Source of the DNA: Ischnura elegans
Lineage: Eukaryota > Arthropoda > Insecta > Odonata > Coenagrionidae
Direction of reading: 5' to 3'
Assembly (NCBI RefSeq): GCF_921293095.1
Contig: NC_060246.1
Span: forward strand, 133,734,198 to 133,798,197
Length of the DNA stretch: 64,000 nt
The notes under the pieces were generated by a model, which ran no database searches, was not told the DNA's origin, and was given only the letters and a program-made list of their open reading frames with translations. A program made the position numbers and the translations under genes. The stretch's first letter is position 1, and each line of letters begins with the position of its first letter. Below, piece after piece: positions 1 through 44,260 of this stretch.

Positions 1-1187
1 GATTGGGAGATAAGGGAGAAAGATATGAGATGGAAATGAAAGTAAAAGAGAACGGGGTCGCGATCTATTTAAGCTTTCATCTACCGTGGGGGTCGAGTAG
101 GATGGGTGGAGAATGGACATAGTGGACGTGAATGAAGTGGGGTGGGTGGAACGGGGGAGAATTCACAACAAACCTATTGCCTCGGATACGATCAGCTTCA
201 CTCCCACGTACTCCACAATATTCCATCCTCAATAATCTATTTCCAGAGATGCTTCAATTTTTATATCGATGTGTGTGCTTAAGGATTAACTGATATTCAT
301 CTACATATTCTTCCGCATATTCTTCTACATATTACCCCGCAAGCCGCCTAAAAAGGCTTATGGCAGGGGGTATTAGGACACCAGCCGTCTACATATAAAA
401 AGCAAATACCTAAAAAAATTAGTAACGGCATTTATTATAGTTCTTTATGGTTCGGTAGAAAAATGAATTCGCATATCTACCCGTTCGGCAAAATATCTCT
501 CTAAATATATTCTGTCGGAACTGGAAATATAGTGGGGCTCTAAGATGATGTTCTTCGTATCGCTCTTAAAGATACTTACTCTCAATAGCTCAGGGAATCT
601 AAGCCTAGCGCGAAGCCTACTAGTCTCTAGCGGCTCCCAGCCTTCTTCGCTTAACATCTGGGTAACGATTGTTGTACGCCCGTGGCAGATATCTTTTCGG
701 AAGCCGTGAAGACAGCCGTGGAGGAAGTTGGTGCATGTAGGAGCCAACCAACAGCTTAGGTTCTTTGCACCATAGGACGGATTAATGATTTTTTTAATGG
801 CATCGATACTAGATGGACGCTTCCATAATAACTCTAATCTCTGCATCCATTCAAAACTGCTGGTAAAACATAGGTATTAAGTAAGTACCTAAATTTTTCA
901 TTTTTAGTCTACGTACATTCGGTGTTAAAAATGTTCCCCATTATTTTATTTTGTGCTATTGCTTTTACATATTGTATTTTTAATGTTACGCTTTATAAAT
1001 TTGATTTCTGACAAATGGAGCCTATGCAAAATACCAGTAAAGGATGCTCTGTTTTACCTACTTAATGAGCAATGTCCAAGTACAAGGAAATCTTAAATCT
1101 ATCTATCCATCCTGTCTACAACACGGTATCGTTAATCATAAGATGCCATTGTTGTTGGTCATTGAAATCTCCCCCGTTCTTCCGCAG
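1..1187. other. Noncoding, upstream of the first recognised exon
   Basis: The 5' exon of the pseudo-chitinase gene should be here or left of the window. A short frame starting MFPIILFCAIAFTYC at 931 resembles a signal peptide, but no suitable donor follows it, so it is not called. Confidence 0.4.
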
Positions 1188-1337
1188 ATAAGTGTCCGGA
1201 TGCCACGCCTTCGACGCACCTCTTGTGCTACCACTGGGGGGAGCTGACCTCATCGGCGCTGGACCCCTGCGTCTGCACCCACCTCGTGCTTCCGTCCAAG
1301 GAGACCAAGGATGGATACCAGCTGGATACGGACAAAA
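1188..1337 (+). CDS. Pseudo-chitinase exon: GH18 beta-1 strand
   Basis: The exon lies between a good acceptor (pyrimidine tract ending TTCCGCAG at 1187) and a GTAAGC donor at 1338. It opens by completing a split codon with AT, then encodes KCPDATPSTHLLCYHWGELT, and ends SKETKDGYQLDTDK plus one base. The CYHW and CVCTHLV segments match the two cysteines at the start of family GH18. Its phase (one base carried over) matches the acceptor of the 20563 exon, giving a 19.2-kb intron. Placement with the downstream exons rests on this phase match and on domain order: without it the GH18 domain lacks its first strand. The upstream exon must end with one unpaired base. Confidence 0.7.
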
Positions 1338-19300: not shown

Positions 19301-22300
19301 GAAAACATCGCAACCAATTGATCTTTCTTGAAAATTTTAGTGAAGTTGTATTGTCCCAAGCGGTGATCCAAAAACATTAATGTGCGCGCATTTTTAAATA
19401 GTTACTACTTATCATTCAAGCATGTATTCTGTATTTAAGTAAAATTTCGTAAAGCACTGAAATGCGTATTTTTAGTATTTTCAGAATGAATAAACTTATT
19501 TTCGTAATAACTGCGATTTTTAAAAAGAACTGTCGATGTTTTCGATAAATCGATCTTTAGGTTCAAATTTCGATGTTTGTAGTAAAATAGAGCTTTCCAT
19601 TTCGTTTAAAAATCGATTTAGACCATTGTTTTTTCCGTCACTATGCACAATATTTTTATACGAATTTCATTTTTTATTTTAAACTAACCTGCCACCCGGC
19701 GTTGCCGTGGAAGGATAGCACCCAGAGAAGGGGAAACTTAGAACTTGGAATTCGTGGTCATATTGGCCTCTCAACGGAATATATGAAAGAACGTAAAGAG
19801 ACACGCGATTTGTAGGAATGCATGGTTAAAATGACAGCAAGGTTATTCGTGGCCCATTTACGTGTGTACGGTTAAGTTGCGAGAAAAGACAGTTTTGTAA
19901 CTGGAAGTCCCCAAATTGGCCTTCACCTCGTACACAGCACGCACAAAGGTATACAAGCATGGCAGAGTGGATGGGGATGTTATCAGAAGGTGGGAGAGTA
20001 AGCCGAGGGGGAGGAATGGGTGCTAGGTGGCGCTGAGTGCACTTGCAGCGTTCGGTAATGAGAAAAGGACGCAAAGGATGAGTCGGACACAGCCGAAAGT
20101 AGCGCTACGGGGTTTGCGATCATGAGATTCACCTACGTATAGGGATGGCGACTTGCAAAAAATATTGGGGGGCCTAAACCGGGGATCTTGCCCAGGGAAA
20201 TTTTATAAGTAGTGAGTTTTAAGTTTTTTTAAGCATTTTAGAAGAGTCATATGATCGACATTAGAACTCTGATAACTCGAATCTCTACATATGGACACTC
20301 CGGGGAAAATCGTCCAGCATGACACATTTTTTCCTCACACCCATAAAGAACTTTTGAGGGGGCTCCGGCCCCCTCAGGCCCCATGGAGTCGGCGCCACTG
20401 CCCATGTACTGACTTTGGTCGCAATCCATGCGGCCATATGAAAATGCATAGCGGACAGACAAACAGATGTCCTCTTTCATATATTTGAAAATGAATAAAT
20501 TAAATGAATGACCAATGAGGTTGATTCATTCCTATAACGATCATGTGTTTTCTCACCCGCAGTCGGTTCCTCCGCCTTGTCCGACCTCCGCAATGGCAAC
20601 CCGTCGCTGCGTCTGCTGCTCGGCGTGGACGCCGCCCCGTCCCTCAGGGGCGCTCCTAGCCACGCGCTGACCGAGTTCGCCCGCTCCACCGCCAAGCACC
20701 TCAAAGAAGCCCGCCTCGACGGACTCGAGGTGAACCTCGGAGAAGACGCCGATGACGCCGACGAGCCCGCGCTCCCCAAGAGGAAGGAGGGCGTCCTCAC
20801 CATATTCAAGGTAAGCCACCGAAACGGGGGTGCATGACATCCCACGGAGAGGATTCTTGTTAAGGGTGGGCGGTGTGCACAAATATACATATATCGACAG
20901 AGAGATCAGGACTCCTAGGTGGGTCCTCCCAAGGATACAACACACCGGGGCCGGGAACCAAGTCAGAGACTTATACGCCCGCGCTCCCGGGGAGGGGTTT
21001 GGATGGGAAGGAACAAAATTTACGAAAGAGGCGCCGCCGCAATAACATATACCGACAATTCGAAATTTCAAATACCTATTGAAGATATACAGACTAGCAG
21101 CGTCAGACCCTGCTTAAACCTTAATAGAAATGCAACTTAGCGCTGCTTTCCTGTTATGGTATAAAAAATCACGATCGGATGATAAAATAAACTGTCGGAC
21201 AAGGTATAAATTAACCCTGGCGGTAAGTGCGATTTCCGCTTCACTCCATTCACAATATAACTTCGGGACGATTATTTTTTCCGGTTGTAGGTATCACCCG
21301 TGAACTCTCGTCTTGCATTGGCAACCTGCACTCACTGTCAGAGGTAAAACTACGCGATGTATTTTTAGAAAGCATGCATCGTGTCATGCGAGCACAAATT
21401 TACTCGTATCACGAGGCGCGTCTACAGGCGATATTTTTTTGTTTCTCGCTTCAATGCTCCCCTGCCTCGCATCCGCGATGACGAATGTCGAGAGCGGGGG
21501 AAGTGAATTAGTGGATTGGAGTCGAAGTGGTCCGCTCGCATTGAATGCGAAAATAAAATGCAATCCGCCGACGGAAGATAGAATGACGCTTGGAAGACGA
21601 AGGTTCACCACATCGCTGCGGTAGGAAGCAAGGACATACGCAGGATCAAAACTAGGGGGCAAGCCATGGTTGTTGAAGTTGTAGGTAAGATTTAAGCATG
21701 GAAAAGGTGAATGAAATCAACATTTTAAGGAAACTTTATCAGCTCTTTATTAGTTTTTGATATTATTTGCTTGAAAAAATATTACTTTTCTTAAAGACAT
21801 TTGCGATTTTTGCTTCTAGGGGGGGGAGGGGCAGCTGCATCCTCCTGCCCCTCGCTGGGTACGCCCATGGCAGAAAGATAATTCGTGGCTAGAGTCTAAG
21901 TGGTCCGGGAGCATTGAATGCGACAATGAAATGCAGTCCGTCGACGTAAGTTCCAGCGACGCTTGCCCCGCTTTTGCACCTCGGGAGTGGGGTGGCTAAC
22001 TGATCTTTGCCCTCCTTACAAAACTACTAAGTATTTCCGGCCCTGGATGTGATTATAACCTAACGTGCTCTCAGGACGACTATGCGCACTGGTATAGAAG
22101 TACAGGGGTTTTAGGCTCGAGTGGTGGGTGGAGTGTATCGGCCTCCTACCCAGTGGGCTCGGGTTCAAATCCCGGTGGTGGCAGAGATTTTCCAGAGACT
22201 TGCCCTTTATATTATATATAGATATTGCCCGTTTCCTGCATGGGTGCTTTGTGGTATGCATTTCAAGTACAGTACTCCGTCCGACGGATGGGACGTTAAG

Positions 22301-25300
22301 CCGTGATCCCCTTGGCCCCTTTAGTGAAGAACAGGCTAATGCCGACGCCGGGTTTCTCTCCACCCTTCCTTCTCTTACCCCCCCCCCCCAATAGCGCAAA
22401 TGACCTAAGCTGTCGGTCGCCTCCTCCAAATACCACACCATGCCATATAAGTATAGAGAAATTAATGGATACTTTCGATAAACAACGAGCAGATTCTGTG
22501 TGAGCGTAAAACGACTAAAAGAAAAAAATTACCTTAAATTTAATTAAAGAGTGGAAAATACCCATAATATAATTTCAAATTATCAATGATACCGGTAACT
22601 CTGCTATTTTATGCCGCAACTCGGTTACTCTCGATATCTGTTTGTGGCGCACAAAAAAGATATTAATGGAGAAACGAAATGTATTGATTAGCAAGTAAAT
22701 CACGTTTCACATACCGTTTTGAAGCAGAAAGCTGGCTTCTCGAAGCGATACCACGACTAGCATTTCAAGGCCATAAGAATAATGGGAATGAGGAAAGACA
22801 TAACGCAATTCTGTGTTCCTGTTTCTCCCGACTAGGCCCTCCGAGAGGAAATGAATGGAGCCCAGGGAACAGAGAGTGACAAGGACCGTTCTCTACTCCT
22901 GCGACTGCCTGTCTGCCCAGAAACCTTGGCCAAGACGTACGACCTCAAGCCACTCTCCAAGTGAGTACACTAGCCACTTGAAATCCCCGGGCGCAAGTGT
23001 TCAAAGATTTGGTAATGATGGATGAATTAAGATCACTATCCATATTTACAGCTATTTTTAGGAGGATTGGTTGTATGAAAATTCTTTTTCCGATTTATGC
23101 CCACATCCTCTATGTTCTTAGTGCCCTCAGGGCAAATAAATACCGACAACAGAAAAAATTAAAGATATAAAATAATAATTACACCCATTTAAAAAGTTAT
23201 GATTATCATATTTATACACATTTAATCGATCTTTTTTTATTCATCTTAAAGTAAAATAAAACGAAATTTTCTACTTCCCTCTATCCTGTGGTATCCACAT
23301 CTTTCATGTTAAAAAAAAACCTAGTAGCTGACACATAAATGATTTTAATATCGACCAGTTTCGTCGCTGTGCGAAATCATCAAGTGTAAATAAAGGAAAG
23401 CAAAGGTAATTATGATTTCCTCTATTCCCACATGAAGCAATGTTACGGAGTCAATTCACGGAACTATGCATCCACATCTCATGAAAAATTATTAAAAATA
23501 TACTGAAGCTGCTGAGCGGCCGAAGAAGAGAATCTAAGTTTTATTATAGTCTATAAATACCGCCTTTGCTGAAAGACCTGTACAAAATATTCAAGCACCC
23601 AGAGGCGGATCCAGTAAAATTCCCGGATAACTTTCTTAGGAAGTAAATATGAAACACATTATAAGGTGCTAAATTAAGTTTTTGATCCACCCGAGAGAGA
23701 TATTTCGTATTTTTTAAGTAAGTACAAATTTGATTCATATTACCAACTGAAAAGCTTGCATACCTACTTATCCTACGGACGCTAACGCTAAAACCCATTC
23801 ACACAAAAGCATTGGTCCTGCATAATAGTCAACATTTGAAGTCAAGTGTATAGTCACCTATAAACTACAACACCAAAACCAGTAGTTTAGCAAGAAAAAA
23901 TCTCGAGGAGTAGGGAGGGTTTAGAAATAATATTTACATCTCTTCATGCAATTTGAAGAGTGGTAAGCAGATATACATGAAAGCTATACGAGTCTTCCCT
24001 GCGGATCATAGCCTCCTACAGGAAGACTCGGTTTACGACTCAATTCACTACTCTTAATGTACATTATGATCGATTCTGTGTATAAACAGAAAAAATTACC
24101 ACTTTCCACACAGGTACGTGGACTACTTCACGGTGTCAACTCACAACATCACCGATGACTCCGAGAGGGACGTGACTTACCATCACAGTCGCCTCATGGG
24201 ATTGGCTGATATTCTGAATACAGTAAGTATTGATTCGCAAAACCGGACAGGGAATTATGAACGGTGTAAAAAATTATCAGCGCCCATCACCGCCATCAAT
24301 ATATTGTTCCTCTCCCAAACGTTTAAAGCGTAACGAATTTATGATTAATTTGGCTAGAAAAGAAAACAAAGGAACCAAATTTTCAGTCCTTTACCAATGC
24401 TTTCATTGACATCTCCAAGAAACAACAGAAATTATGAATTCCAAGACGTCGCAAGTACCCTTGGCAGGGATTTGGGATGAAGTCTATTTTGCAAACGGCT
24501 ACCATAGCGTCTGCTCAATCTCTATCTTTATCACATTCAGCAATAAATCTTTTGACAGGGAAAAAGTCGAAGCATAAACTTCGTCGATAGCTCAAAGGAT
24601 ATACAGAAAAAGTGGAGATGCAACATTCTTAAATTGGAATTCACGGCCTAAATTAAAAATCCGCTCAACAATTTTACATTAACGAGGTGATAGGGACATT
24701 AAATATATTATCAATAAAATTCGGAGGTTAATCTACATTTCATCAATTAAATAAATCCCTGTAGTAGATTACACTGGATTGCAGGAACTTCGTTACGGTT
24801 TTTTCTCCACAGAGATATCGCATACTACGTCGCAATCTCATCTGATCGTGCTATTGTTTCCTCGACTTCAAATGTCGAGTCAACAACCAGCACACGAGCC
24901 GATAAGTCACTCAGAAACGCATCCCGCTGTCGCAATCGCACTGGATGCTGCTCGCTGGATGAGGATATTTTTAAGATCGCCGCTGTTTACATCCTCTCTT
25001 TCTCTCCCTCTACGCAGGATTCAGTTCTGGATCTGCTCACTGGCATGGGAGCGCCACCGTCCAAGCTCATCATATCCATGCCAACGCAAGCACTCACCTT
25101 CTCGCTCAAGGACGAGAAGAACAACGTGGCCCGGTCGCCAGTGGAGGGAGAACCCCAAATCATTGACTACAATCAGGTAAGAGGAGTGACCTCCCTTGCA
25201 ATGGAGCCTCCGCCAAAATTGTAATGCGGAACTTAAGGGACAGGAGTAAACTTCACAGGATGATAATAAAGGAAAATATTAGTTTTATATTGGTTACCTC

Positions 25301-28300
25301 ACTCACTCAGTGATTCAACCGGAAGGTTTGTATGAATCGGGGGAGATAGAGTTCACCCCAGACTGCCACAGGCGTAGGATTTCACGCATTCAGGGTATAC
25401 AGGGGTAGTGGTACGGCAAAGGGGGGGGGGGTTTGGAGGATAACCCCCCCCCCCCAGAGCTCAGAGAAATTTTAAAGCATAATCCATTTCACTTAATTGG
25501 ATTAATATTAATGATAGAATAGTGTAAATATTTATAAAATATCCAACATAAGGCCGTAAAACTCACCATTTTGAACCATTCATCTGAAAATGTTACTAGT
25601 GGTGGGCCCCCGCACCTCCCGCTTACCCTGGCGGGTATTCCACACCCTCAGACACTCCAGTGTTTTGCGCCTGAAACCCCCCCTAGCCTTAATTCCTAGC
25701 TGCGCCCCCTGTACATTTCTTTCCCTGAGCCACCTTGCATTTCAAGGATTATGTTCAGGGGTTTCCTAAGGCTAAATCCGAGATTTGAACCAGATCAGCA
25801 ACGTAATCACGCGCTCTACCCACTAAGCTACAACGGTCCCCTAATATTGGTTGTTAATCCCCATTAAATTTAAATTGTTGAATGAGAAAATTTTGAGCAA
25901 AGTAGTAGTCGACGCAATGTGTCTTTTTTCGCCATTATATTTGCTATTTAAGATTTAATCAATTTTATAGTTCTTGCTACGAATATGTTGCGGATAAATA
26001 AAATTAACTATCAACAGTTTGCCAAATCTTCGAAGAAAACAAGTGCCGCAGAATTTAAACGAACATTGTATCTTGCAGAGAAATGTTTGCCAAGGCTTTT
26101 TAATTTTACCGATGAGGATACTCCACCAAAAAGCATGAAATTCCATTTTGACAAGCAATCTCACTTCGTTACCAAAGTAATTTGAAAATTTTTAAGGCAG
26201 AAAAGGCATTTCTAAATGTTGAAGAAAAAAGAATCGTGAATTATAATCGAACAAAAGAATTCACTATTACTAACCTTATGGTTTCCATAAATATTGATTT
26301 TTAATCTCATATTTGAATTGAAACGGATATACAAGACAAATATTACAAACACCTTCACGGAATCCAATAATTTCCTAATTAAATAAAAAAATCAAAATGT
26401 AGAAGAAGCCAAAAAATTGCTTGCTACAAAAAACCTCTCTCAAAGCTTCTACACCCCAAGCTGAAGACTCATCCTCAATATCATGCAACGCAACATGCAG
26501 GGGCGGTCTGGCCAGGTCGGCTATTGCCGAGGGCCCCGAGCTTGGGGGGGGGGGGGGGGGGGGGGGCACAACGCTGGCGTCTATCGTAAAGCGTATATGA
26601 AAATTGTAATAAAAAATAAGACTCAGATGACTTGAACCAAAGTCTTTTTTGCGATTAAAAAATTCTACGTTTTCGTTAGTGGCTCTACACTGTTTGCATA
26701 ATCGGTGAAAAAAGATCATATTAAAAATAAATAACATAAAGGTGTCAGAAGATAAAAGAGAACCTGATGCTTTTTTGAAAGGGTTTTTCGAAAAGGTTAG
26801 TTTAGGGGTTTCTTTGGATTAAAGCACAGTTTCAAGGAACAAATTCACAAAGAAATGAAAAAAGAATACATTTTTATATTTTATAATCTGTGAATTTTTT
26901 GCATGTTATTTTTTCTTACAAAATTGCTTTATTTTATTAACTTTTATCTGGTTTTTACTAGCCGGAATAGCATTAAAATCTATTTCCGGGAATGCAATTT
27001 CCTAAAATTTTTCGGGGGAAGATCTCCGGCGAGGGTGGGGGCATTAAGAGCCCCAGGCTAGGGCACCCCAGACCGCCCTTGGCAACATATACACTATACT
27101 CTGTTAACATATGTTTTGTGTGTGTGCGCTGCAGTAGCGGGTACAGAAAAAACTCAAGGGGGGCGCAAAAGATATCTTGAGCTACCTTTAATTTTGTCGT
27201 AATGACAAATAATTAAGTCACATTGAAAGCTTGAGAAAGTTTTCATTTAAACTGATAATACGCATGTACAAGATAGTGCCATCTAATGATATAAAAAAGT
27301 TACTGCTACGGTTCTGCTATGTTCGGCAATGCGGGCTGCCTCGCAAGGGTGGGGCGCGCGCCCCCTGCGCCCTCCATATGTATCCGCCACTGGTGCGCTG
27401 ACAAATTGGTCAGCCAGTAACGATGGACATCTAGCTTTACAGGTACAAACCTTGGTATAGCATCACGGTTTTTCTGCGCGCCTTCGTTCACTTTCAATTT
27501 CCAAAAGTGGTTGTTGCGCCCAAAGAAATTTTAACCACAAGCTTTTTTAATACATGAAGTCGTACAGCGACGGGATAGTTAGAATATAAATTAATTTTAC
27601 CCTAGAGAATTTTAACAGTTAGGATGGTCTCCTAAAATGAAAATTTTCTTGATTAGAGATAATTCCGAGGTAATCGGGTCGTTCACACAGACCCGAAGAC
27701 ACAAATTAATAAACAATTTCGGTAGATGAATGGGGAAAAGAAGCTATGACGAAAAAGAACTCGTCTTCATTCAGCCATTTTCTCATCACTTGAAAATTCT
27801 CCATTTTTCATGAGTTAGTGACGTCATTTAAGTTCTGGTTCACTAAATCCGTCAGAGAGACCCTATCTTCAACGGGAAGAATCACTCATTAGAGAGCTAA
27901 TGACAACGAACCACGTGTAACGTATGCGCGAGGCCAAGAGGTAGCGGGGCAGCGATGATCCGCTCGGCGAGATTCATTGACGTCATTGAACTTTTCAGCG
28001 GAAAGGAAGCTTTTCGATATTTCGCCCCCAATAGTACTAGAAGTAGGCAACGGATCGGAACACGGAAAATACCAGTCCCTTTATTTTTCAAACTCTATCG
28101 CAATCTTAAATAATTAAAAAAAAGTGAACGAGCCCAATCGATGTGAAGGATAGCATCGGCCACGATCCGCTTTAGTTAGGTGCTGCTGTGCATACCATTT
28201 ATTGGCCCCTGGAGGGTATGCAATGCCTATCAACAAAGCAAAGAAAAACTCATCAGTGAAAAAAATTAATAGAAACATTGAATTGAACATATATTTAAAC

Positions 28301-31300
28301 TCGAGTAGAAAAACCAAGCTCCTGATTACTCTCCATTTTCCCAAGAATCACTCCCTTAAAATGCGCCAAACGAATCACAATGCTAAAGGTGATAATATTA
28401 TAATACGAAAATGCATGAGTGAACGAATATTATTGACATTAATTATACATAGCTCTCGTCAGCTACCCAGTAGTGAACAGCCTTCGGGACACGAGAATGG
28501 TTATAAGAATATAATTCAAATACCTTCCAGTGATTTTCATGACGGTACGCGACGCGACGTACAGCACAGTAAAAGTGATAAATATGCACGTAAAGATTTT
28601 TATGACTGCATTTATAACCTCAAAGGACAAGATTTTGGAAAATGATGCATACGAAAAAATGGTCTTAGTGACTAAGTGACGGTGCATCAGGGGAAGGGGG
28701 CCAGACGAATAAACATGCGCACTGACCATAAGACAAATTCACGGATTTAACTAATGAAAGTAATGCTTCGAAGCGCAGGCGGGATGAGGAAGAATTTTTC
28801 CTAGTAACCTATCTTTCTCTTCTATCCATTGAATTATTTTACTGAATCGCGAATTTCAGGTGTGAGTGAACGATTCTATGTGCGGAGATTACCCTGAATC
28901 TGTCAATTTCTCTCATTAAGGTTTGATTGCTTTCCACCCAGGTGTGCGCCATGATGAAAGAGGGAGGGTGGACTGTGGAGCGAGACGAGGACCTGACTGC
29001 CCCGTACGCCTTCCGGAACAAGACGTGGGTCGCGTTTGAAGACGAAACCAGCGTCACCATCAAGGTACGTACATAAACTGAAAGAATCTCAAGGCGAACA
29101 AGAAATGATGCCATGATACTTCTCCAGTATCCTTGCGATTGGCCCAGTCGTGCAACCTCGGAATTTTTCGAACGGCGTACAGTGGGCTGAAATCGAAACT
29201 AGCAAGATAAAACCTCAAAAATGTTTTTTTTTAAGAGCAGAATTCAAAACTTTTCACAGTTGTTGTCAATATATTATTGCACGTTTCAACGCAAACCGTT
29301 TTTCATAGATTATTTTTTTAGACAAATGACATGGTCTCAAAGTTTAACAAAATTCTCGAAAATTGCCCGCATTGAATTTATTTCGAAATTCAGCATGTTA
29401 AAACTAACGCCACACCTTTTTTAATGATTCAATAACAACCAAAATTTATAATATTATTAAACGGTTTGTTATTGTTAATTATCATTAACTTTAACGACTT
29501 GTTTGTAGTATTTGTGGGCGATATAATACAAAATGGGGGACCTTGTTTTTTATCGAAATTTTGTGTTTGTACTATGCTATTCAGTTTTCTCCAATGACGA
29601 TGGAAAAGGACACCGGAACTCCAAAGTACATCAACTAGTTTTAAAAAGAGCGTTTTTAATACGAAATGTGTTTTAATTTTACTATTTCACCATCCTTCCA
29701 TTAAACTATATAGTATAAAGTAGTTTCCAATGTATCAACGTTCCCTGTATTTCGTCTTCTTGTAGGGTAAATACGCCCTCCTTAGGGGTCTAGCTGGAGT
29801 CGCTGTTTCTTCCATCGACGCCGACGACAGCGAAGGCATCTGCGGCAAGGGGCCCTTCCCGCTGACCAATGCCCTTCGAAAGACGCTGTCGACCCTGTCC
29901 CGCAAGCCAAGGGGCCTCGTCCTGCAGTCGTTGGAGGAGGAGCTACGCGGTGGTGAAACGGTTGCCCTGCCGGAGGCGTCCCTGGGCGCCGAGGTGCGCC
30001 TCTCTCCCTTCCGCATCGTGCGTGTGGTGGACAGGGAGGGCGCCGTGCACGTCATCCGAAGGAACTCCGAGACGAGCTTCCAGTGCTCACGCCAGGGATA
30101 CTTCAGACATCCGCTCGGATGCAACCAGTGAGTCACGCAACAACTGAAGCCGAAATCACACGACGCCTGACAAATTGACCTGGCACAAGTCCGAGTATAC
30201 TACCGAGTATCTTCGGAACTAGAGTAGACTTATTCATATTTTATCGATTCATTCATAGCGAGCTTGATGAAAATCCCTCATAGTTCGTTTGCTAAATGGT
30301 ATACTTTTTCCCGTTATTGATAGAGTCTTAGTATCATTCTTGCTCCAAGTAAATCGATAAAGTTAGCTCTTTCTGACGTTTTCGCTACAATCTTTAATTT
30401 TTGTGAGAATATTGCCCTGATTCTCAACGAAAAAATAAACTTTCCCATGGTTACGTAAAAAAAACCTTAGGCGACCCTGTGATTGAAGCAAGGTCGGTTT
30501 CAAACACTATAGAAGTTTGGTCCTGGGAATAATACACTCGCTAGTATCCTCAGACGTTTACAAGGTCAAGTATGGTGTCATTCAAGCTTAGCACCTTCCT
30601 TCATCCAATTCACGAATCATTAGTTATCCCACGGACGTGGCGTGGATGGAAGAATACCCCTACATATCCTGCTTTCCAGGCATACTAAGATTAAATCGTA
30701 TAAGTAAATTTCATTGCACTTTGCCATAATAAAATATGAAAAAGAAGTGTCATGATGTTAACCTTACTTCCAAGACTTGCAGACCTGCATCCTTTCTCAT
30801 TATTACACAACAAAACATTATTTGCACTGACAGAAATGAACACAGCCGGGAACAAAACCAGAATTATAATGACCGTAAATCATTCACATTACACCTATAC
30901 CGCAGCTTTAAATAAAATCGACTAATATGCTTTCCGATGGATAAGGCGATTATTATGACCAAAAGATAATTTTGTTCCCAGAGAAACATCACACATTTTT
31001 ATGAAAACGTAAAAAAACGGTTCTCCGCCTTTACACGATATACTCTTCGCGGCCGAAATTATAGAAATGAATGGATAGGCGGAGAGAAATTAATTAACTA
31101 CGACAATGCTAGAGCTACCATAGAATATTTTAATACATATGACTTATTTATCAAAATATAGAATACAATGTTAAACTATTCTCATGGTAAAAATGTTTAT
31201 TTTATTAAAAATATGATATTAATATTTTTCTATACCAAAACTAAAATTATTTACCATTTCCTCATCCCTTCATATAGGTTTTATCGATGCGTGAAATTCG

Positions 31301-34300
31301 ATCAGCTTGTCGACGATTTCTCGGTCTTCGAGTACGACTGCCCTCCCGGACTGGCCTTCGACGAGAAGTGGGAGGTTTGCGTCTGGCCGGGACAGATGTC
31401 CAGACCCTGCGACGGATCCAGCGAGATCGCTCCTGTGCCAAGGGCTCGATTCACCTGTCCCGCGGAGGGATACTACGCCGACCCCGAGAACTGCCGCTGG
31501 TTCTTCGCCTGCCTCGACCACCACGGAGACCCGAGCGTCGCCGGCCGAGACGCCACTGACCCACACTCTGGACTCACCGCCTACGAGTTCCGCTGCCCCT
31601 TTGGTCTGGCATTCGACGGTAGCCGTCTGGCTTGCGAGTGGCCCTGGTTCGTTCCAGGGTGCGGAAAGGTAGAAATCGGATCCGGTGTCCTGGCCGCAGT
31701 CCAGCCCGCGAGGATAGACTACAGCCTTCAAGGAGGTTTCGGCGCTATAGCCGCCAGCAACGCGGTGCATCGCCTTTCTCACTCGGACTCCGGTACGGTA
31801 GCCTCAGTCCTGGGTGGAGCAGGCAACGGCGGAGCTAGAGTACTCAGCGGAGCTTCCCACATTGGAGGAATATCTCACGACTTGCATTCCCTGGGAGGAG
31901 GCGCGGCCATCGGTTACAGCGGAGCCGCCGGAGTTCCTTCGGGAGGCTCTCTGATCGGTCTGGGAGGCGCCACATTGGACTACGCGCAGCCAGCCGCTGG
32001 AGTCGTTTCCCACGGTTCCAACGTCTTCACTGGCAATGGGTTCGACCTGCGACACGAAATCCCGCCGAGGGTGGCTCCTCTTGGAGGTGTAGGCCTGGGC
32101 AATGTCTACACTAACCAAGCTCAAGTGGTAGGATACGATACGGGCGCGCCGGCTTCTGGGTTCTCCTACGCTTCAAGGCCTGCGATCGTAACTGGATACC
32201 AGGGCAACCTGAAGGCTGTCCCCCAGGCTCAGGGCTCGCTCGGGCTGTTTGGCGCGAATGGTGCCAGGGGCGTTAGCGTGAGTAACGTCGGGCTCAGCGG
32301 AATCGGAAGTGGAGGCACCTTGGGGTACCAAGCGGTGACGACTGCGGCGCCTCTGGAGGCTGCCGTCGTGACAGACAAGTCCCACGTGTACACTTCTCTC
32401 GACGACGCGTCTAAGTACACTGCATCAGTTTCAACCGCTGCTCCTACCTCAAGACCGCTGTCTCTAGTCAGGACGAACGTCTTCGCTTCCACCCCGATTT
32501 CGGTGACTCCAACTCCCATCACGTACCAGTCACCCAGGCCGACATTCCTACCTCAAGCAAATTTCTACCTGAGCTCGGCACCAGCGGTCGGGTCAGGATC
32601 GAGCTCATTTTCGTACTCGAGAGATAGCCAACCCGACGACGGAAGTCTGAACACAGGCACTGCCTTCGGCTTGGGTTCCGCTACGGGATCGGAAGGCTCC
32701 GAACCCAGGTCTGGAGACGTGAAATATTATCCACGTCCACTGACCACATACAGGTCTGAATCGTACTCTTCTCCGACCTACAGTTCCGCCGCAACTCCTG
32801 CCATTATTTCCTCATATTCGATCGACGCAAGCCCCCCTCGCACAGGAGGCCTGGTCCCCGTAAGACCGATTGAGACATCCTCCGTCTACACATCATCTGA
32901 ACGTCCATTAGCTCAGGTTGGATCCTACCCCGCTTACGAGGCCGCTCGCTCCGCGCCCTCATCAGAAGGAGGATCTGTTGGCAACGTTGTCCACCAAGGC
33001 TCACAATCTTTGTTTAGCGACGACGGCGGGTCAAATAGGGCATACGACAGCGCAGGTCTTGGACAAATTCGAGATGACGCCCACGCCGTGACCGGAGACG
33101 GTTCATCGAGGCCGAGCTTGGTCAGCGTGTCTTCGAATTCTCAGGCCTCCATAACCCCCGTTTTGACGGAACCTGAAAACAGATTTTCATACAAAAATCT
33201 CCCTCTATCCATTTTGGACGCCGCAGCACCAGTGTTCGGCTCCACAGGAGGAACTAGCAGCACATTTTTCCATCAGTCTCCTCCCCAACGTGTCTATACT
33301 TCAGCTAACGTTTCTCCAGCTCCTTCTCTGGTGCAAAGCATCAACGATGGAAATCATCTGAACATAATTTCCACGACGCCCAACTACGACCAAGTGCACC
33401 TCAACTTCGATAACCAAAGAAGAGGAGGAGAAGGATTTTCCTACAAACGTATTCTACCTGTTGTTGAATACTCTACCCCATTGCCAGTTGTGCCTAGGAT
33501 TTCCCTAGAAGATTCATCTGCCAGAAATAGAGAGAACTTGAATGTGAAAACGGTACGCCCAGTATTCACAACAACAGAAGCACCTCACTCTTCTGTCAGT
33601 GTTGAGGACAATGGTTATGGTAGTCGCACATCCTATGATGGCAACAATCAACAACCGGTGGCCTACACGAGCAGCCATGGAACCAGCGGAATCATTCAAC
33701 AAGTGCAACTGGAGCATCAGACTCCTGCTCCCTATAATCCATCCTACCAAGAGCTAGGCATTGTCCAGGAAGATTACACTCCACAGTTCAGATCTACTCC
33801 AACAGTTTTTGTCTCCACTACTCCTCAACCTCCTTCCACAGCATCAACTGTGTCCTACTCAACAGAGGCACCTGTTCCAATATCCAAGGAACCAACAGTT
33901 TTCTTCGTGCCTTCCAGAGGATCAACCCGTCATAGACTCTACTCCAGCACAACACCTGCACCAGTACTGGTTAGCAATTATCCAGCAGAGCAGCACATAG
34001 TGGATGATGTCTCTTCTTTCCCCATCAATAGGGTGCCACAAAACTCATTTGTCTCTACTACCTTTGCACCTCCAGTTGCTGCTCCATCTGTACAACCAAT
34101 TGTACAAATCTACAACCAAAGTGCTGATGGTTACAGAGGAATAGGAACTGTCACCACATTCAGGCCTGCAATTCAACTTGGTCGCGGTTCTTTCTCTTCA
34201 GATGACAAGGATGGTCCAGTGAGTGTCACAGCTGATGTGAAGGCCTCGTATGGAAACAGGCCCTCAAAACGAGTGAAGGTGGATGTCCTCCTCAAAGAAG

Positions 34301-35430
34301 ACGATGATGAGCCACATATTTCCATAGAAACTGACTCAGGAAAGGTGGGTAGGGGTCGTTACAGGTATAGAGCAAGAGGTGGAGAAGTTAGTGTGAATGG
34401 AAAAAAGAAATGCGATGATGAGAATGAACAGAGTGGAGGACAGGACTATTCCAATGTAGATGCCCTTCTCGACACCTACTCAGGAAACTTTGGCAGTGTC
34501 CTCAATAATGGAGAAAGAGGTCTATTCTCAACTGGTACCTATTCTGGAGTTGATAGTAACAGCAATCAAGCAGTGGAAATTGGAAACTTAGGTAGACAGG
34601 GTTATAACCAAGCAATTCTGAGAGGAGACCAAGGAATTGAAGATGACAATAACGGAGCATATGGTGAGAGGAGTACAGAATCACAACCTCAACTGGCACT
34701 AGGGGTGACAGTGAACTCAGCTGCAAGAAATGGACGACCTAGAATTAGGGGTAGATTCAAGCCTAGCAATGTAATCACAGAAACCAGTTACTCATCTACT
34801 ACCCCACAATACTATGACAGAAGTGAGACAGAGAGAAATGTGTATATTAGCTCTTCTCTTCCAACTGTTGCCCCTATTTACTCATCTACAGTTGCTATTC
34901 CATCTGGAAATATTCAAAGAAATGGTAATGGTGACGTTACCACCATTTACACTGGAAATGTCGGACAAGGCAATGGTGCTAGCACAAGTGCAGGTTCTCC
35001 CATAGATCTATCTCATGCTGCTGTAATCATACTTCCATGCGGTAAACTGCCTGCGCTCCTTGCAAAACTTGGTGCTGTGACTCAAAGCTTGAAAGCCATT
35101 GAGCAAGAAGAGAGCAGCAGCGGCTATCTGAGGGTAGCTAGAAAGCAATCAGCAGCTCCTCTCAGCTTGCCACCGCTCAATAAATTTGGGCCCAATGGCT
35201 GGGATTCAGTGGAGAAAACACTGGGTAATGAAGCTTGTAAGCGTGCAGGTCTCTTCCGGCATCCAAGTGACTGCAATCGGTTCTACGAGTGTTTCTGGGA
35301 TGAAAAGAAACGAAGATATACTCTACATGAATTCAAGTGCCCAATTCGTTTGGCGTACGATGACAGCTTAGGTGCCTGTAACTGGCCAACTTCTGGTCCA
35401 GCTTGTTCCGGAAATAAGCTGCTTGTTTGA
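1188..35430 (+). CDS. Chitin-binding GH18 pseudo-chitinase with mucin-like linker (8 exons, 5' end missing)
   Basis: The eight exons join without a frame break to give at least 1,809 residues. Residues about 8-350 follow the GH18 chitinase fold in order: a CYHW...CVCTH beta-1 block, NPSLRLLLGV, LDGLEVNLGE, YVDYFTVST, GAPPSKLIISMPT, GGWTVERDEDLTAPYAF and GVAVSSIDADD. The catalytic DxxDxDxE, GGW, MTYDxxG and VWSxDxDD motifs are all degenerate, so enzyme activity is unlikely. Three six-cysteine CBM14 domains follow, at about 400-447, 465-540 and 1746-1805, with a low-complexity linker between the second and third. The inferred role is a secreted structural or chitin-organising matrix protein of cuticle, trachea or gut lining. 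The first exon and signal peptide are not identified. Exact orthology is not recognised. The nearest family architecture is chitinase-like proteins with CBM14 domains and a long Ser/Thr-rich tail. Confidence 0.85.
1438..1663 (+). mobile_element. CTAGGGGG...CCCATGG element, copy 1
   Basis: Starts CTAGAGGGGGGCAAG and ends CTGGGTACGCCCATGG, with a G/C hairpin (GGGGGCAGCTGTCTCCCCCC) near the right end. It shares both ends and the middle with copies at 21652 and 51922. A non-autonomous element of about 220-290 bp with no coding capacity. Confidence 0.65.
1667..4901. other. Intronic, no gene seen
   Basis: AT-rich sequence with one tRNA-like fragment (3425-3500), a short GTAT-type run near 3780 and a pyrimidine-rich block near 4440-4530. 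Confidence 0.5.
3425..3500 (-). repeat. tRNA-like fragment (B box)
   Basis: The - strand reads GAGGTCGCGGGTTCGAGCCC, a good Pol III B box, but no convincing A box or cloverleaf precedes it. A SINE head or tRNA pseudogene fragment. Confidence 0.4.
5360..5702 (+). pseudogene. Acidic, repeat-associated open stretch of unknown origin
   Basis: A frame is open from about 5360 to TAG at 5700. It reads ...QERRKRRVSVRVDELSYG, then SSHLKTPASLDENDSD, a DDDDED run and YRRSTYRELLSIES. An acceptor (GTGTTTCAG) at 5438 falls in phase, and AATAAA lies at 6072. A diverged, inverted copy of the acidic part sits at 4902-4972, and the last 80 bases belong to a dispersed repeat. A basic-then-acidic start recalls the N termini of some DNA-transposon proteins, but nothing further supports that. 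It could be a terminal exon of a host gene. No function is assigned. Confidence 0.25.
5603..5904 (+). repeat. Dispersed repeat D, copy 1
   Basis: Shares GAGCGTAAAACG, AAAAAAATTA, GAGTGGAAAATACC and GAAAGCTGGCTTCTCG in order with 22470-22770. A further shared tract CCTGTTTCTTCCGAC lies at 6208-6222. Confidence 0.6.
6222..6343 (+). mobile_element. SINE fragment (3' half), same family
   Basis: Matches the 22.1-kb SINE from GGCTAATACCGACGCCGGGT to CCTCTTCCAAATATC. The tRNA-like head is absent, as expected of a 5'-truncated retrocopy. Confidence 0.65.
6996..7999. repeat. 1-kb long inverted repeat (hairpin)
   Basis: The left arm (6996-about 7335) and right arm (about 7650-7999) are complementary over about 340 bases with scattered mismatches, around a loop of roughly 300 bases. 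Arms begin and end GGAAAAATTGTTTTACTGGA / its complement. Located in the long first recognised intron. A foldback element or palindromic MITE. Confidence 0.7.
8106..8300 (+). repeat. Dispersed repeat A, copy 1
   Basis: Aligns with 13387-13571 through AAGTTGGCTTC, CGGGTTGAAA, GTACGTTTTA, ATAATGGTGCCG and CATCAAGATA blocks. Confidence 0.55.
8360..8430 (+). repeat. Repeat F, inverted partner at 12637-12690
   Basis: CATAGAGCATCTGGAGAGGG followed by CGTTAG recurs reverse-complemented at about 12650-12680, including GAAGTGAAGCCAG-like sequence to its right. Confidence 0.55.
8431..12321. other. AT-rich, no exon recognised
   Basis: Should contain the next exon of the THAP gene if that gene is intact. 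I see a candidate donor GCATTAG/GTAAGT at 9362 (+) and a candidate acceptor TATCCTTCCCAG near 9015 (-), neither linked to a recognisable product. Confidence 0.4.
10622..10672 (-). repeat. tRNA-like SINE head fragment (A box)
   Basis: The - strand reads GTGGTGGCCTAGTGGATCGA, an A-box-like start similar to the head of the window's SINE family; no B box follows. Confidence 0.35.
12322..12392 (-). CDS. First exon of a THAP-domain protein
   Basis: Reading from ATG at 12392 leftwards, 23 codons give MVCCAAYGCSN then CPDKRIPGITFH and a GTAAGT donor immediately after two bases of the next codon. This is the N-terminal half of the THAP C2CH zinc-finger DNA-binding domain: the start M-V-x-C-x-A-x-x-C-x-N and the (I/S)xFHxFP strand are diagnostic. 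THAP proteins are DNA-binding regulators, and several derive from P-element transposases. The rest of the finger (FP, W, the second Cys and the His) must lie in a downstream exon. None was recognised between 8.4 and 12.3 kb on this strand, so this is either a gene with a long intron or a lone remnant. Confidence 0.6.
13387..13571 (+). repeat. Dispersed repeat A, copy 2
   Basis: Same blocks and order as at 8106-8300, same orientation. Confidence 0.55.
13572..17672. other. Intronic, no gene seen
   Basis: AT-rich sequence with a tRNA-like fragment (16615-16671) and a GC-ended repeat trace near 16810-17080 (GTGCCCCCC, CTGGGTCCGGCCC). Confidence 0.45.
16615..16671 (-). repeat. tRNA-like fragment
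   Basis: The - strand has GATATCTTAGTAGATCATCT then CCCGAGTTCGAATTTC, A-box- and B-box-like elements in tRNA spacing. Acceptor-stem pairing fails, so this is a SINE head or pseudogene. Confidence 0.4.
17673..17790 (+). CDS. Candidate coding first exon starting Met-Gly-Asn-Thr
   Basis: ATG at 17673 opens 39 codons (MGNTFTKCLKCGDDGDG, then a basic KKKKRRSHK stretch and KNKEKSS) followed by a textbook GTGAGT donor at 17791, leaving one base. Gly at position 2 with a small residue at 5-6 is the usual N-myristoylation context, and nearby Cys residues could be palmitoylated. The phase matches the 20563 acceptor of the pseudo-chitinase gene, so it could be an alternative first exon. The product would then be cytoplasmic or membrane-anchored and would lack GH18 strand 1. 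It could equally be the first exon of an unrelated gene. No acceptor-phase reading through from upstream was found. Confidence 0.4.
17791..20143. other. Intronic, no gene seen
   Basis: AT-rich sequence between the Met-Gly-Asn exon and the GC-ended repeat; no open frame or repeat recognised. Confidence 0.5.
20144..20405. repeat. GC-ended repeat just upstream of the 20563 exon
   Basis: Bounded by GGGATGGCGACTTGC on the left and GGAGTCGGCGCCACTGCCC on the right, with a hairpin GAGGGGGCTCCGGCCCCCTC near 20356. It looks like one of the many MITE-like elements here, but no second copy is in the window. Confidence 0.35.
20563..20810 (+). CDS. Pseudo-chitinase exon: GH18 beta-3 and degenerate catalytic strand
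   Basis: The acceptor is CTCACCCGCAG and the donor AAG/GTAAGC. The exon completes a split codon with TC and ends in phase 0. It carries NPSLRLLLGVDAAPS, where active chitinases have a GGW motif, and RLDGLEVNLGE at 20712-20744, where active enzymes have DGxDxDxE. The catalytic glutamate position is not conserved. It is much more GC-rich than the flanking introns, as are all exons of this gene up to about 33.3 kb. Confidence 0.85.
21652..21870 (+). mobile_element. CTAGGGGG...CCCATGG element, copy 2
   Basis: Starts CTAGGGGGCAAGCCATGG and ends CGCTGGGTACGCCCATGG. It lies between two imperfect copies of an 80-bp local duplication (21510-21595 and 21891-21972). Confidence 0.65.
22112..22440 (+). 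mobile_element. tRNA-derived SINE, fullest copy
   Basis: A tRNA-like head has a diverged A box followed by a B box (GGGTTCAAATCCCGG at about 22162), then a body with GATGGGACGTTAAGCCGTGATC and GGCTAATGCCGACGCCGGGT, a C-run, and a tail ending CCTCCTCCAAATACC. Three other copies lie in the window. The copy sits in the intron between the 20563 and 22836 exons. Confidence 0.75.
22470..22832 (+). repeat. Dispersed repeat D, copy 2, abutting an exon
   Basis: The second copy of the 5.6-kb repeat. Its right end, CCTGTTTCTCCCGAC, supplies the polypyrimidine tract of the 22836 acceptor. Confidence 0.6.
22836..22960 (+). CDS. Pseudo-chitinase exon: GH18 alpha-4 to beta-5
   Basis: The exon runs from ACTAG at 22835 to a GTGAGT donor and leaves two bases. 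It encodes ALREEMNGAQG...DRSLLLRLPVCPETLAKTYDLKPLS, which matches the GH18 stretch with the loading helix (LREAF-like), the LLLTAAVPA-like strand and the (Y)D(V)xxLSKY segment. The pyrimidine tract of the acceptor lies in sequence shared with a dispersed repeat copy at 6208-6222. Confidence 0.82.
24114..24222 (+). CDS. Pseudo-chitinase exon: GH18 beta-6
   Basis: The exon lies between CCACACAG and GTAAGT. It completes the split Lys codon and encodes YVDYFTVSTHNITDD...HHSRLMGLADILNT. The family motif here is D(F/Y)xxVMTYDxHG; this protein reads STHNITD, so the tyrosine and aspartate that contact substrate are replaced. HHSRL keeps the GHxSPL-like position that follows. Confidence 0.85.
25018..25176 (+). 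CDS. Pseudo-chitinase exon: GH18 GAPPSKLIISMPT strand
   Basis: The exon lies between CTACGCAG and CAG/GTAAGA and is 53 codons, phase 0 on both sides. DSVLDLLTGMGAPPSKLIIS followed by MPTQALTFSLKD aligns with the GH18 consensus GAPxxKLxLGxPxYGRxFxL. The YGR of active enzymes is QAL here. It ends with EPQIIDYNQ, the usual yYEIC region, which continues as VCAMMK in the next exon. Confidence 0.87.
25421..25455. repeat. G11 / C12 hairpin
   Basis: Eleven G's (25421-25431), a 12-base loop and twelve C's (25444-25455). Part of a GC-ended repeat spanning about 25360-25720 in an intron. Confidence 0.6.
25768..25841 (-). repeat. tRNA-like pseudogene or SINE head
   Basis: The - strand begins GGGACCGTTGTAGCTTAGTG, with A box TAGCTTAGTGGGTAGAGC and B box GGTTCAAATCT in tRNA spacing. 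The 5' and 3' acceptor strands do not pair well. A tRNA-derived element rather than a working tRNA gene. Confidence 0.5.
26498..27082. mobile_element. Element with AGGGGCGGTCTGG inverted ends
   Basis: The left end is CAGGGGCGGTCTGGCC and the right end GGGCACCCCAGACCGCCCTT. About 585 bp, containing a 23-base G run (26544-26566). Inserted in the intron between the 25018 and 28942 exons. Confidence 0.55.
27083..28941. other. Intronic, no gene seen
   Basis: Contains GC-ended repeat traces near 27310-27400 (GGGGCGCGCGCCCCC) and two TGACGTCA palindromes (27819, 27978). A 147-codon open frame at 28202-28645 has no homology signs. Confidence 0.45.
28942..29064 (+). CDS. Pseudo-chitinase exon: GH18 GGW...W strand
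   Basis: The exon lies between TTCCACCCAG and AAG/GTACGT and is 41 codons, phase 0 on both sides. It encodes VCAMMKEGGWTVERDEDLTA then PYAFRNKTWVAFEDETSVTIK. The GGW, PYA and W(V)xFEDxxS residues are the usual structural landmarks of this part of GH18, so the fold appears kept even though the active site is lost. Confidence 0.87.
29766..30127 (+). CDS. Pseudo-chitinase exon: end of GH18, linker, start of CBM14-1
   Basis: The exon lies between TCTTGTAG and ACCA/GTGAGT and leaves two bases. GLAGVAVSSIDADDSEGICG is the last GH18 strand. Active enzymes have Trp in VWSxDxDDF, but here it is VSSIDADDS. After the TNALRKTLSTL helix a charged linker of about 60 residues follows, then FQCSRQGYFRHPLGCN, the first two cysteines of CBM14-1. 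The exon is strongly GC-rich. Confidence 0.87.
31278..35430 (+). CDS. Pseudo-chitinase terminal exon: CBM14-1 end, CBM14-2, mucin-like linker, CBM14-3
   Basis: The exon starts after CATATAG and completes CAG (Gln) of the split codon. The in-frame sequence upstream of 31278 is intronic and AT-rich. FYRCVKF...YDCPPGLAFDEKWEVCVW completes CBM14-1. A second CBM14 follows immediately (CPAEGYYADPENCRWFFAC ... CEWPWFVPGC). About 1,200 residues rich in Ser, Thr, Pro, Tyr and Gly follow, many in STTP/STAP-type runs suited to O-glycosylation, so mucin-like. Two non-repetitive islands interrupt it: about 34219-34410 (charged, ending GRGRYRYRARGG) and 35005-35110 (a hydrophobic helix around AAVIILPCGKLPALLAKLGA). 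A third CBM14 (CKRAGLFRHPSDCNRFYEC ... CNWPTSGPAC) precedes TGA at 35428. GC content falls in the 3' third. Confidence 0.92.
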
Positions 35431-41999: not shown

Positions 42000-44260
42000 G
42001 TTTTACTACAGTAACTCCAAATTTTCATCATAGTTCTTTTCCCTACCATAAAAGTACCAGCATTAGCTGTTCCCTTCAAATACTTAAAGAGTTTTCTTAA
42101 TATTAACGGAGTCCTACTTCTGTGGGTTTTCCATTGATCTGATGCCGAAGTTTACTGAAAAGCTGAGATCCCGATGTGTCTTACAGGATGATTATAAAAG
42201 ACTTTCAGCAGCTTCTCGGTAGTTGAATTTTTCTTTTTCAGGATTTTCAGTATATTCATCCAGTTTGTTATCAGGTGTGATAGGTGTCGTTGTTGGCTTT
42301 GAGTTTTCCATGCCATATCTCTTCAATACTAGCAGTGCATAGTTTTTATGTAATATACTGATTCCTTCTTCAGTTTTTTCTATGTTCACGCCAATGTATG
42401 ATTTTGGTTCTGACTCAATTGTTATTTCAAAAAATTTTCTCAGTTTATCTAACAATTTATAAATCTTTTCTTTCTCTTTACCAATAATTATTCCATCGCC
42501 GATAAGTATCATGATAAAAATATCTCCAGCTTGTACTTGGATATGCACTGGTCTGGCTTAAGCTGAACCACGTTAAGTTCTTTGAGAGTTGTCGCTAACT
42601 TCTTGTTCCATTGACTAAGGTGCTTCTCGCCGCCCGTACAGTGACTTGCTCAGGAGAAATATTTTTCCTGGCTGATCAAAACCTTCCGGTACTCATTATA
42701 TAGATTGGTTCTTCTAATTCACCATTGAGAAATGCTGTTTTCACATCTAGAGTTTGAATTTCCCAGTTTCTCTTGGCTACTATGGCAAACAACAATCTCA
42801 AAAAGGTTGTGTCAATCACTGGACTAAAAATATGTTTGTAATCTATATTTTTCTTGTCTTGAGAACATCCTCTTGCAACTAATCTGGCTTTAAATTTTCC
42901 ATTATCTTTGACTTTAAAAACCCATCGTCTAGTGAGGATCTCTTTTCCTAGTGCTTCAACTACATACGTCCAAGTGTTATTCTTCATCAATGAGTGTACT
43001 TTATCTTTCATGGCTTTCATCCATTCCTGTTTCTCTTCACAACTAACAGCCTCATTATAGGCCAGTAGTGCTTCATCTTCACAAGTATCAAAATCCATTA
43101 CGAAATTTTTATGTTTTGCAGGTAGTCTTTCCTCTCTAATTTTTCTCCAATTTCTTCTTCTATTCTGTGGTCTTGATTTGTATGGATTTGGATTTCTTCG
43201 ATCTTGATTCTTTTTCTTGATTTTCATGTATTTCATCTTTTATCAATTTCTTAGTCTTGATTTTCTTGTCCTTCATTTTCATTTATTTCATCATTTTCTT
43301 GATTTCCATTTTCTTTTTACAACTCTATATTGACTTCTCCTTCTAGTTTGTTTGCAGAGAGAGGGAATATGTTTGAAAAAATTACATCTCTACTAACTAA
43401 AACTTTTCTTTCGTATTCTTTCCACAATTGGTATCCATTTGAAGCATAACCTACAAGAATAGCTTCCTCACTCCCACTATCAAATTTCTTCAGTGATTTT
43501 ACTATTTTTGAAAAAACTTTCTGGCCAAATATTTGTAAATTTCGCAATTCCAGTTTCTTTTTATGCCAATTTTCAGCAGGAGTTTGAGGCATTCATTTGG
43601 TTCATCAGATAGGCTGCTGTTTGCACTACGTCACCCCACAGGTATTTTTTGCATTTAGCATCAAAATTAAGTGCTCTGGCTTTATTCATCAACGTAAGAT
43701 TTACTCATTCACTTTTTCATTCGATTGAGGAGTATGCAGAATGGTGAAGTCCAATATGATTCCTTTTTCTTGACACCATGTTGTCAGAAGCTCGTTTTTA
43801 AATTCACCACCAATGCTGCACCTAATCTTACTGGTTTTTAGATTGAAATGGGCCTCTTCCACATTTATAAATCTTTAAATGCACTGAAAACTTCTGAAGC
43901 TGATTTTGTTTCTATGCCTTGCAAAAATGTGAATAATCATCCAGCAATGTGATGAAGTAGTTCCTGTTGCCATAGGTTGGAGGGTCTATTGCCCCACACA
44001 GTTCTGAGTGTATAAGTTCCAGGGGACAACTAGCTATCTCTCTCTTACTGTTCTAAAAGTCAGTCTCACATGTTTGGCTCTTGCACAAATAGGTACTGCA
44101 ATCAACAGTATTAAATATATCAGCCTTGCATGATACTCCATTGTACAACTTGGGAATCTTCATCATCTGGCTGTGACTGAGGTGGCCTAATGTCCAGTAA
44201 CATTCCTCTATTCCTGTTGCCTTCTCTTCAGCACTTAACATATTGCGTACGGATGGCGAG
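42000..44260 (-). mobile_element. Degenerate Ty1/copia retrotransposon pol
   Basis: On the - strand, in order: a GAG-pre-integrase-like segment (ECYWTLGHLSHSQMMKIPKL) near 44.2 kb; integrase core pieces (NYFITLLDDYSHF near 43.95 kb and ILHTPQSN near 43.75 kb); the integrase C-terminal region (43317-43592); the copia-type reverse transcriptase (RRWVFKVKDNGKFKARLVAR and LDVKTAFLNGELEEPIY at 42676-43236, continuing at 42192-42548); and a start of RNase H (KLFKYLKGTA) near 42.1 kb. Several frameshifts and stops break it, and no flanking LTR pair was recognised, so it is a dead, truncated copy. Confidence 0.85.

Follow-up and report, generated by a model that had tools for sequence, protein, structure and literature searches.

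In this study we examined a 64,000-base stretch of the genome of the odonate Ischnura elegans (bases 133734198-133798197 of contig C1, hereafter the window), in which an initial annotation had placed a chitinase-like domain of glycoside hydrolase family 18 (GH18) at 20712-29860. That span does fall within a gene but covers only its middle: eight exons on the forward strand, spread over 1188-35430 of the window, join in frame into a protein of 1808 residues whose sole stop is the last codon. The short peptides quoted in the annotation are all present in this one gene, namely CYHW (1226), CTH (1274), NPSLRLLLGVDAA, DGLEVNLGE, STHNITD, GAPPSKL (25048), GGWT (28963), PYA (29002) and VSSIDADD. Genome scans covered the assembly of 1,722,721,009 bases in 110 contigs. 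The exons and the domains of the last one are as follows, in window coordinates.

1188-1337, forward strand: first exon seen, with the start of GH18, CYHW and CVCTHL, the gene start being missing (AG/GT borders, phase 1 out).
20563-20810, forward strand: exon with beta-2 (LRLLLGVDAA; GGW lost at about 20622-20636) and motif II, DGLEVNLGE (20718-20744) (sequence, joined frame, profile alignment, shared intron 1 site).
22836-22960, forward strand: GH18 exon, LLLRLPVCPETLAKTYDLKPLSK (splice borders, joined frame, profile alignment).
24114-24222, forward strand: GH18 exon with motif III, STHNITD for MTYDxxG (24136-24156) (joined frame, profile alignment).
25018-25176, forward strand: GH18 exon, GAPPSKLIISMPTQAL in place of the usual GxPxYGR (joined frame, alignments).
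28942-29064, forward strand: GH18 exon, VCAMMKEGGWTVERDEDLTAPYAFRNKTW (joined frame, profile alignment).
29766-30127, forward strand: exon with motif IV, VSSIDADD (29805-29828), the end of GH18 and the start of the first CBM14, from about 30078 (joined frame, Pfam).
31278-35430, forward strand: last exon, with the rest of the first CBM14 (to about 31410), the second CBM14, the linker, the third CBM14 and the stop (open frame, Pfam).
31456-31662, forward strand: second CBM14, six cysteines, with a long insert between Cys3 and Cys4 (Pfam, cysteine count).
31690-35208, forward strand: linker of 1173 residues, 21% serine and threonine, 29% with proline added, 11% glycine, two N-glycosylation sequons (composition count).
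35236-35406, forward strand: third CBM14, six cysteines, C-terminal (Pfam, cysteine count).

The gene is real. The introns between the exons seen all have GT-AG borders (7/7) and consistent phases, and G+C content is 0.50-0.68 in the exons versus 0.33-0.46 in the introns. Intron 1, in phase 1, interrupts the coding sequence nine residues before a conserved lysine or arginine, and its position and phase are common to five of the seven other Ischnura GH18 genes or domains that were read there as DNA (C12:55.80M, C9:27.28M, C9:70.67M and two domains of C5:97.6M). The site differs in the C8:51.37M gene and in the IDGF-like C8:9.57M gene, and also in two C1:10.44M domains, judging there by exons that span the intron 1 point rather than by DNA. 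The first exon seen starts in phase 1, and the gene start is absent from the model. Along the coding sequence third-position G+C drops from 0.79 to 0.35. Decay into a pseudogene, or an incorrect gene model that lacks exons, might account for the very long branch of the GH18 domain in our tree and for a start exon that escaped our screens, but it fits poorly with 1808 codons uninterrupted by a stop, with seven canonical introns in phase, with an intron site common to sister genes, with the 18 cysteines kept in the CBM14 domains and with the lack of any intact-motif match in the three forward frames of window 1-36000; we find it scarcely credible.

The joined protein matches the Pfam model Glyco_hydro_18 at residues 17-324 (E = 4e-31, 109 bits for a cut-off of 29.6). 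The domain is recognised only in the joined protein: when single exons were scanned genome-wide with the same profile, 86 matches reached E<=0.001, none of them inside the window. GH18 is followed by two adjacent CBM14 domains (residues 411-469 and 485-553), by the long stretch rich in serine, threonine, proline and glycine, which is mucin-like in a loose sense, and by the third CBM14 (residues 1745-1801). Each CBM14 carries six cysteines, with spacings of 11, 5, 15-27, 12 and 8-9. Pfam and the joined frame bear out the combination proposed in the initial annotation, a degenerate GH18 together with three CBM14 domains and a long linker of low complexity. The best PDB match of the GH18 domain is the Ostrinia chitinase domain 5wus (4.2e-31), with 6jm7 (OfChtIV) close to it (5.6e-31) and scores of up to 112 bits; an NCBIfam scan gave one match, far under its cut-off. 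When three Ostrinia domains and the joined protein were used in tblastn (E<=1), no further GH18 or CBM14 exons were found in the 130 kb upstream. In the window, where matches of the joined protein were listed from 40 bits up, the search returned, besides the gene's own exons, one weak match at 28199-28567 (E 0.074, 21%) and likeness among its own CBM14 domains. According to Pfam and to these searches, the gene has a single GH18 domain.

Set against 12 GH18 domains with intact motifs (three Ostrinia stretches and nine Ischnura rows assembled by hand, several of them partial), all four signature regions, defined as in the relevant part of PMC8002649, are degraded. Region I has lost GGW and shows NPSLRLLLGVDAA instead, in exon 20563-20810. 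Region II reads DGLEVNLGE for DGLDxDWEYP; it keeps DG, is one residue longer than DGxDxDxE and lacks the DxxDxDxE of active GH18 chitinases. Region III reads STHNITDDS for MTYDxHGxW, the tyrosine and the aspartate of MxYD being lost, and the YGR that follows GxP is replaced by QAL. Region IV, VSSIDADD, has lost its tryptophan and kept DxDD. The alignment of region II varies with the method. The profile of the 12 intact domains sets the glutamate of NLGE on the catalytic glutamate by a one-residue insertion, with both motif aspartates replaced (by E and N); the top two PDB alignments likewise put the final glutamate of DGLEVNLGE there; MAFFT inserts seven residues, keeps the second motif aspartate and places an aspartate on the acid position; read without gaps, the acid is a glycine and neither aspartate is kept. 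None of the three readings restores the intact motif, and the loss of regions I and III does not depend on the choice among them. The catalytic acid may be displaced rather than missing. The earlier statement that every motif had been lost is accordingly slightly too strong: the degradation of all four regions stands, but DG and DxDD persist. A working chitinase whose acid is shifted by one residue (NLGE) would suit the glutamate that the profile alignment places on the catalytic column, but the same alignment has both motif aspartates replaced, and the tyrosine and aspartate of MxYD are lost together with YGR; we hold such an enzyme to be very improbable.

A missing exon that restores the motif was rejected, since a single exon contains the motif and can be aligned on either side of it. 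Such an exon, named in the initial annotation as evidence that would speak against it, was sought with the patterns DxxDxDxE, DG.D.DWE and DWE[YF]P, which gave no match in the three forward frames of window 1-36000. One DxDxE at 5535 was set aside as part of an acidic stretch of open frame with no GH18 likeness by eye. Among 80 positions that are at least 80% conserved in the 12 intact domains, 33 of the 62 outside regions I-III are kept, against 4 of 18 inside them in the profile alignment (Fisher P 0.031), 3 of 18 in the ungapped reading (0.007) and 5 of 18 in MAFFT (0.066); region IV was left uncounted because too few rows reach that far. This excess of losses in the active site is suggestive, not strong. 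We infer that the GH18 fold itself is kept.

Mammalian chitinase-like proteins combine a GH18 fold with a substituted motif II and bind glycans without cutting them, and the window protein might likewise be a chi-lectin, that is to say, a protein whose GH18 cleft binds chitin or another glycan without cleaving it. Chains of chitinase-3-like protein 1 are indeed among the PDB matches (best 5z05, 5.3e-26). The cleft, however, argues against it: the tryptophans of GGW, HGxW and VWxxDxDD are replaced or absent, as are the YD of MxYD and YGR, and the GH18 insertion region is about nine residues shorter. Four tryptophans are described as conserved in the clefts of insect chitinases, and tryptophans and insertion domain are tied to substrate binding, in the part of PMC5827449 that deals with the cleft. 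By our own assignment of the OfChtII tryptophans, one of the four belongs to the first strand and the others to GGW, HGxW and region IV. These three are lost here; the one in the first strand may have its counterpart in the W of CYHW, a residue not covered by the alignments. With the stacking tryptophans gone, a barrel that binds glycans seems less likely than one that acts as a scaffold, and we consider a chi-lectin unlikely. The suggestion of the initial annotation that the protein serves in chitin or glycan binding or as a scaffold thus holds for a degenerate chitinase with three CBM14 domains, and less so for glycan binding by GH18.

The founding description of group X chitinases is said to be that of Tetreau et al. 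2015. The named members of this group are BtCht3, NlCht3, ApCht8, D. citri Cht3, Bombyx CHT3 and TaCht3. The window protein has a single GH18, two closely spaced CBM14 domains directly after it and a third near the C-terminus (here residues 1745-1801 of 1808), which is the architecture given for group X, Cht3, in section 16 of PMC9933517; it differs from the named members in being odonate, and its N-glycosylation sequons are few. BtCht3 of the whitefly, known to us from the text of PMC8002649, is described with the same structure and, in section 15, with all four conserved regions poorly conserved, as here; a signal peptide is also reported for BtCht3. Bombyx CHT3 is listed with three chitin-binding domains (CBDs) in an entry of PMC7379184. 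Passages on the distribution of the group give it as absent from flies (PMC12193260), while for groups IX and X no crustacean homologues were found and both are called unique to insects (PMC8002005). A limited literature search on odonate and Ischnura chitinases found no published odonate Cht3. The initial annotation had seen here the best candidate for an under-described system, a claim that these descriptions of group X and of BtCht3 do not support: because the gene fits a published family, its novelty is low, as that of a new odonate member. We judge it probable, taking both together, that this gene represents group X (Cht3) in Ischnura elegans and that it acts by the mechanism proposed below.

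Group VI chitinases (Cht6) have an intact motif, and a Cht6 that has lost its active site would have a GH18, one CBM14, a region rich in serine and threonine and, in hemipterans, a C-terminal CBM14. The long serine- and threonine-rich spacer and the C-terminal CBM14, which the relevant section of PMC9933517 reports for hemipteran Cht6, are found here too, but the same section gives Cht6 one CBD after GH18 whereas two closely spaced CBM14 domains follow it in the window protein, and such an origin appears improbable. What the IDGFs (group V) share with the window protein is the GH18 fold together with substitutions in motif II, where A stands for D in D. citri IDGFs (PMC9933517, in part) and two IDGFs of the whitefly carry Q or K instead of E (PMC8002649, in part); IDGFs are described in PMC9933517 as devoid of a CBD, in contrast to the three CBM14 domains and the four degraded regions seen here. 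The best solved GH18 relatives, Ostrinia 5wus, 5wup and 6jm7, differ in their intact DxDxE.

A tree built from 17 GH18 rows leaves the window domain alone on a branch of 4.7 changes, in none of the four supported sets, and placement in a named group by tree was rejected since no supported set holds it. It lies outside the set of 5wus and 5wup with their Ischnura counterparts. We provisionally take 5wus, 5wup and C1:10.44M to be Cht7 (group III), the PDB entries of 5wus and 5wup being named simply Chitinase; judging by domain order and tree, C5:97.6M is presumably Cht10 and C8:9.57M an IDGF. The genome protein search returned 17 matches: the eight own exons, the own C-terminal CBM14, four at C1:91.13M on the same chromosome, all of them within a single CBM14-rich frame, and four in other GH18 genes. 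No second copy of the gene was found among the best candidates of this search. A CBM14-pair query matched one stretch of the viral contigs and a GH18 plus CBM14-pair query gave 204 matches in the prokaryote contigs, none of them confirmed. Elsewhere in the genome, a chitinase-like gene at C8:51367500-51377089 reads DGMDLAWPFP in motif II, the catalytic E being changed to P and one D to A, and keeps the parts MAFDY and FWDISMDD. In the tandem GH18 cluster at C5:97612170-97623581, presumably Cht10-like, domains 1-2 read DGVDLHWEFP and SGLHIDWHYP and three later domains DGLDLDWEYP; group II is reported to have some inactive domains (PMC9933517, in part). At L058:834-6104, on the reverse strand, 1756 residues are encoded by one open frame, in which several CBM14-like domains can be made out by eye between stretches rich in serine, threonine and glycine, with a ESTTAGQETTAGSQ-like tandem repeat; the product looks peritrophin- or mucin-like. 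Within the window, two open frames at 42192-43239 on the reverse strand resemble, by their motif, fragments of a copia-type retrotransposon reverse transcriptase.

Several points weigh against a group X protein deprived of catalysis. Its membership rests on architecture and on text descriptions, known Cht3 proteins having been compared by description. TaCht3 is described with two CBDs rather than three, and its RNA interference gave no phenotype, which lends an essential role no support (both in parts of PMC12841776). The many potential glycosylation sites of the group are moderately matched, with two N-sequons in the linker and 21% serine and threonine. A glutamate stands at or next to the expected catalytic place and the second aspartate is kept in MAFFT, so that residual activity is possible, and by one of the three alignments, that of MAFFT, the signature regions show no significant excess of losses. 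Finally, crude and strict home-made filters found no credible start or signal-peptide exon in the 130 kb upstream and window 1-1187 (49 ATG frames had a hydrophobic core and one a fitting donor, which was not credible), and a second filter of the same kind found none in the nearest 30 kb upstream.

Weighing these points, we still favour a chitin-bound matrix protein that would bridge or organise chitin, because three CBM14 domains with all their cysteines stand at the ends of the spacer next to a GH18 that has no recognisable working site. The most likely product is a secreted, chitin-anchored matrix protein in which the CBM14 domains bind and the barrel serves as scaffold. It would be secreted into a chitinous matrix such as the cuticle, where the three CBM14 domains, placed at either end of a long flexible spacer, could fasten it to chitin; the GH18 barrel would no longer cut chitin and might act as a folded scaffold or protein-binding module, the whole being a cross-linker or organiser of chitin rather than a hydrolase. 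The expression reported for TaCht3 of Tuta in integument and head (PMC12841776, in part) and for D. citri Cht3, highest in nymphs according to the published excerpt, suits a cuticle role.

In the literature cited here group X is classed with the chitinases and its function left open. One gene survey took DWEYP as the essential chitinase signature (PMC3097210, in part), and surveys based on it would miss genes such as this one. What makes the gene interesting is the question whether the whole of group X is non-enzymatic. Group X might be an ancient pseudoenzyme lineage, whose GH18 would have lost both its catalysis and its binding in the cleft before the split between dragonflies and the remaining winged insects, and would since have been retained as the structural scaffold of a protein that bridges chitin. 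The odonate gene, which matches the whitefly report in architecture and in the type of degradation, fits this scenario, and the scenario deserves to be taken seriously although we stop short of calling it probable. With an odonate gene whose active site is degraded, a non-enzymatic role of the whole group in the chitin matrix becomes testable.

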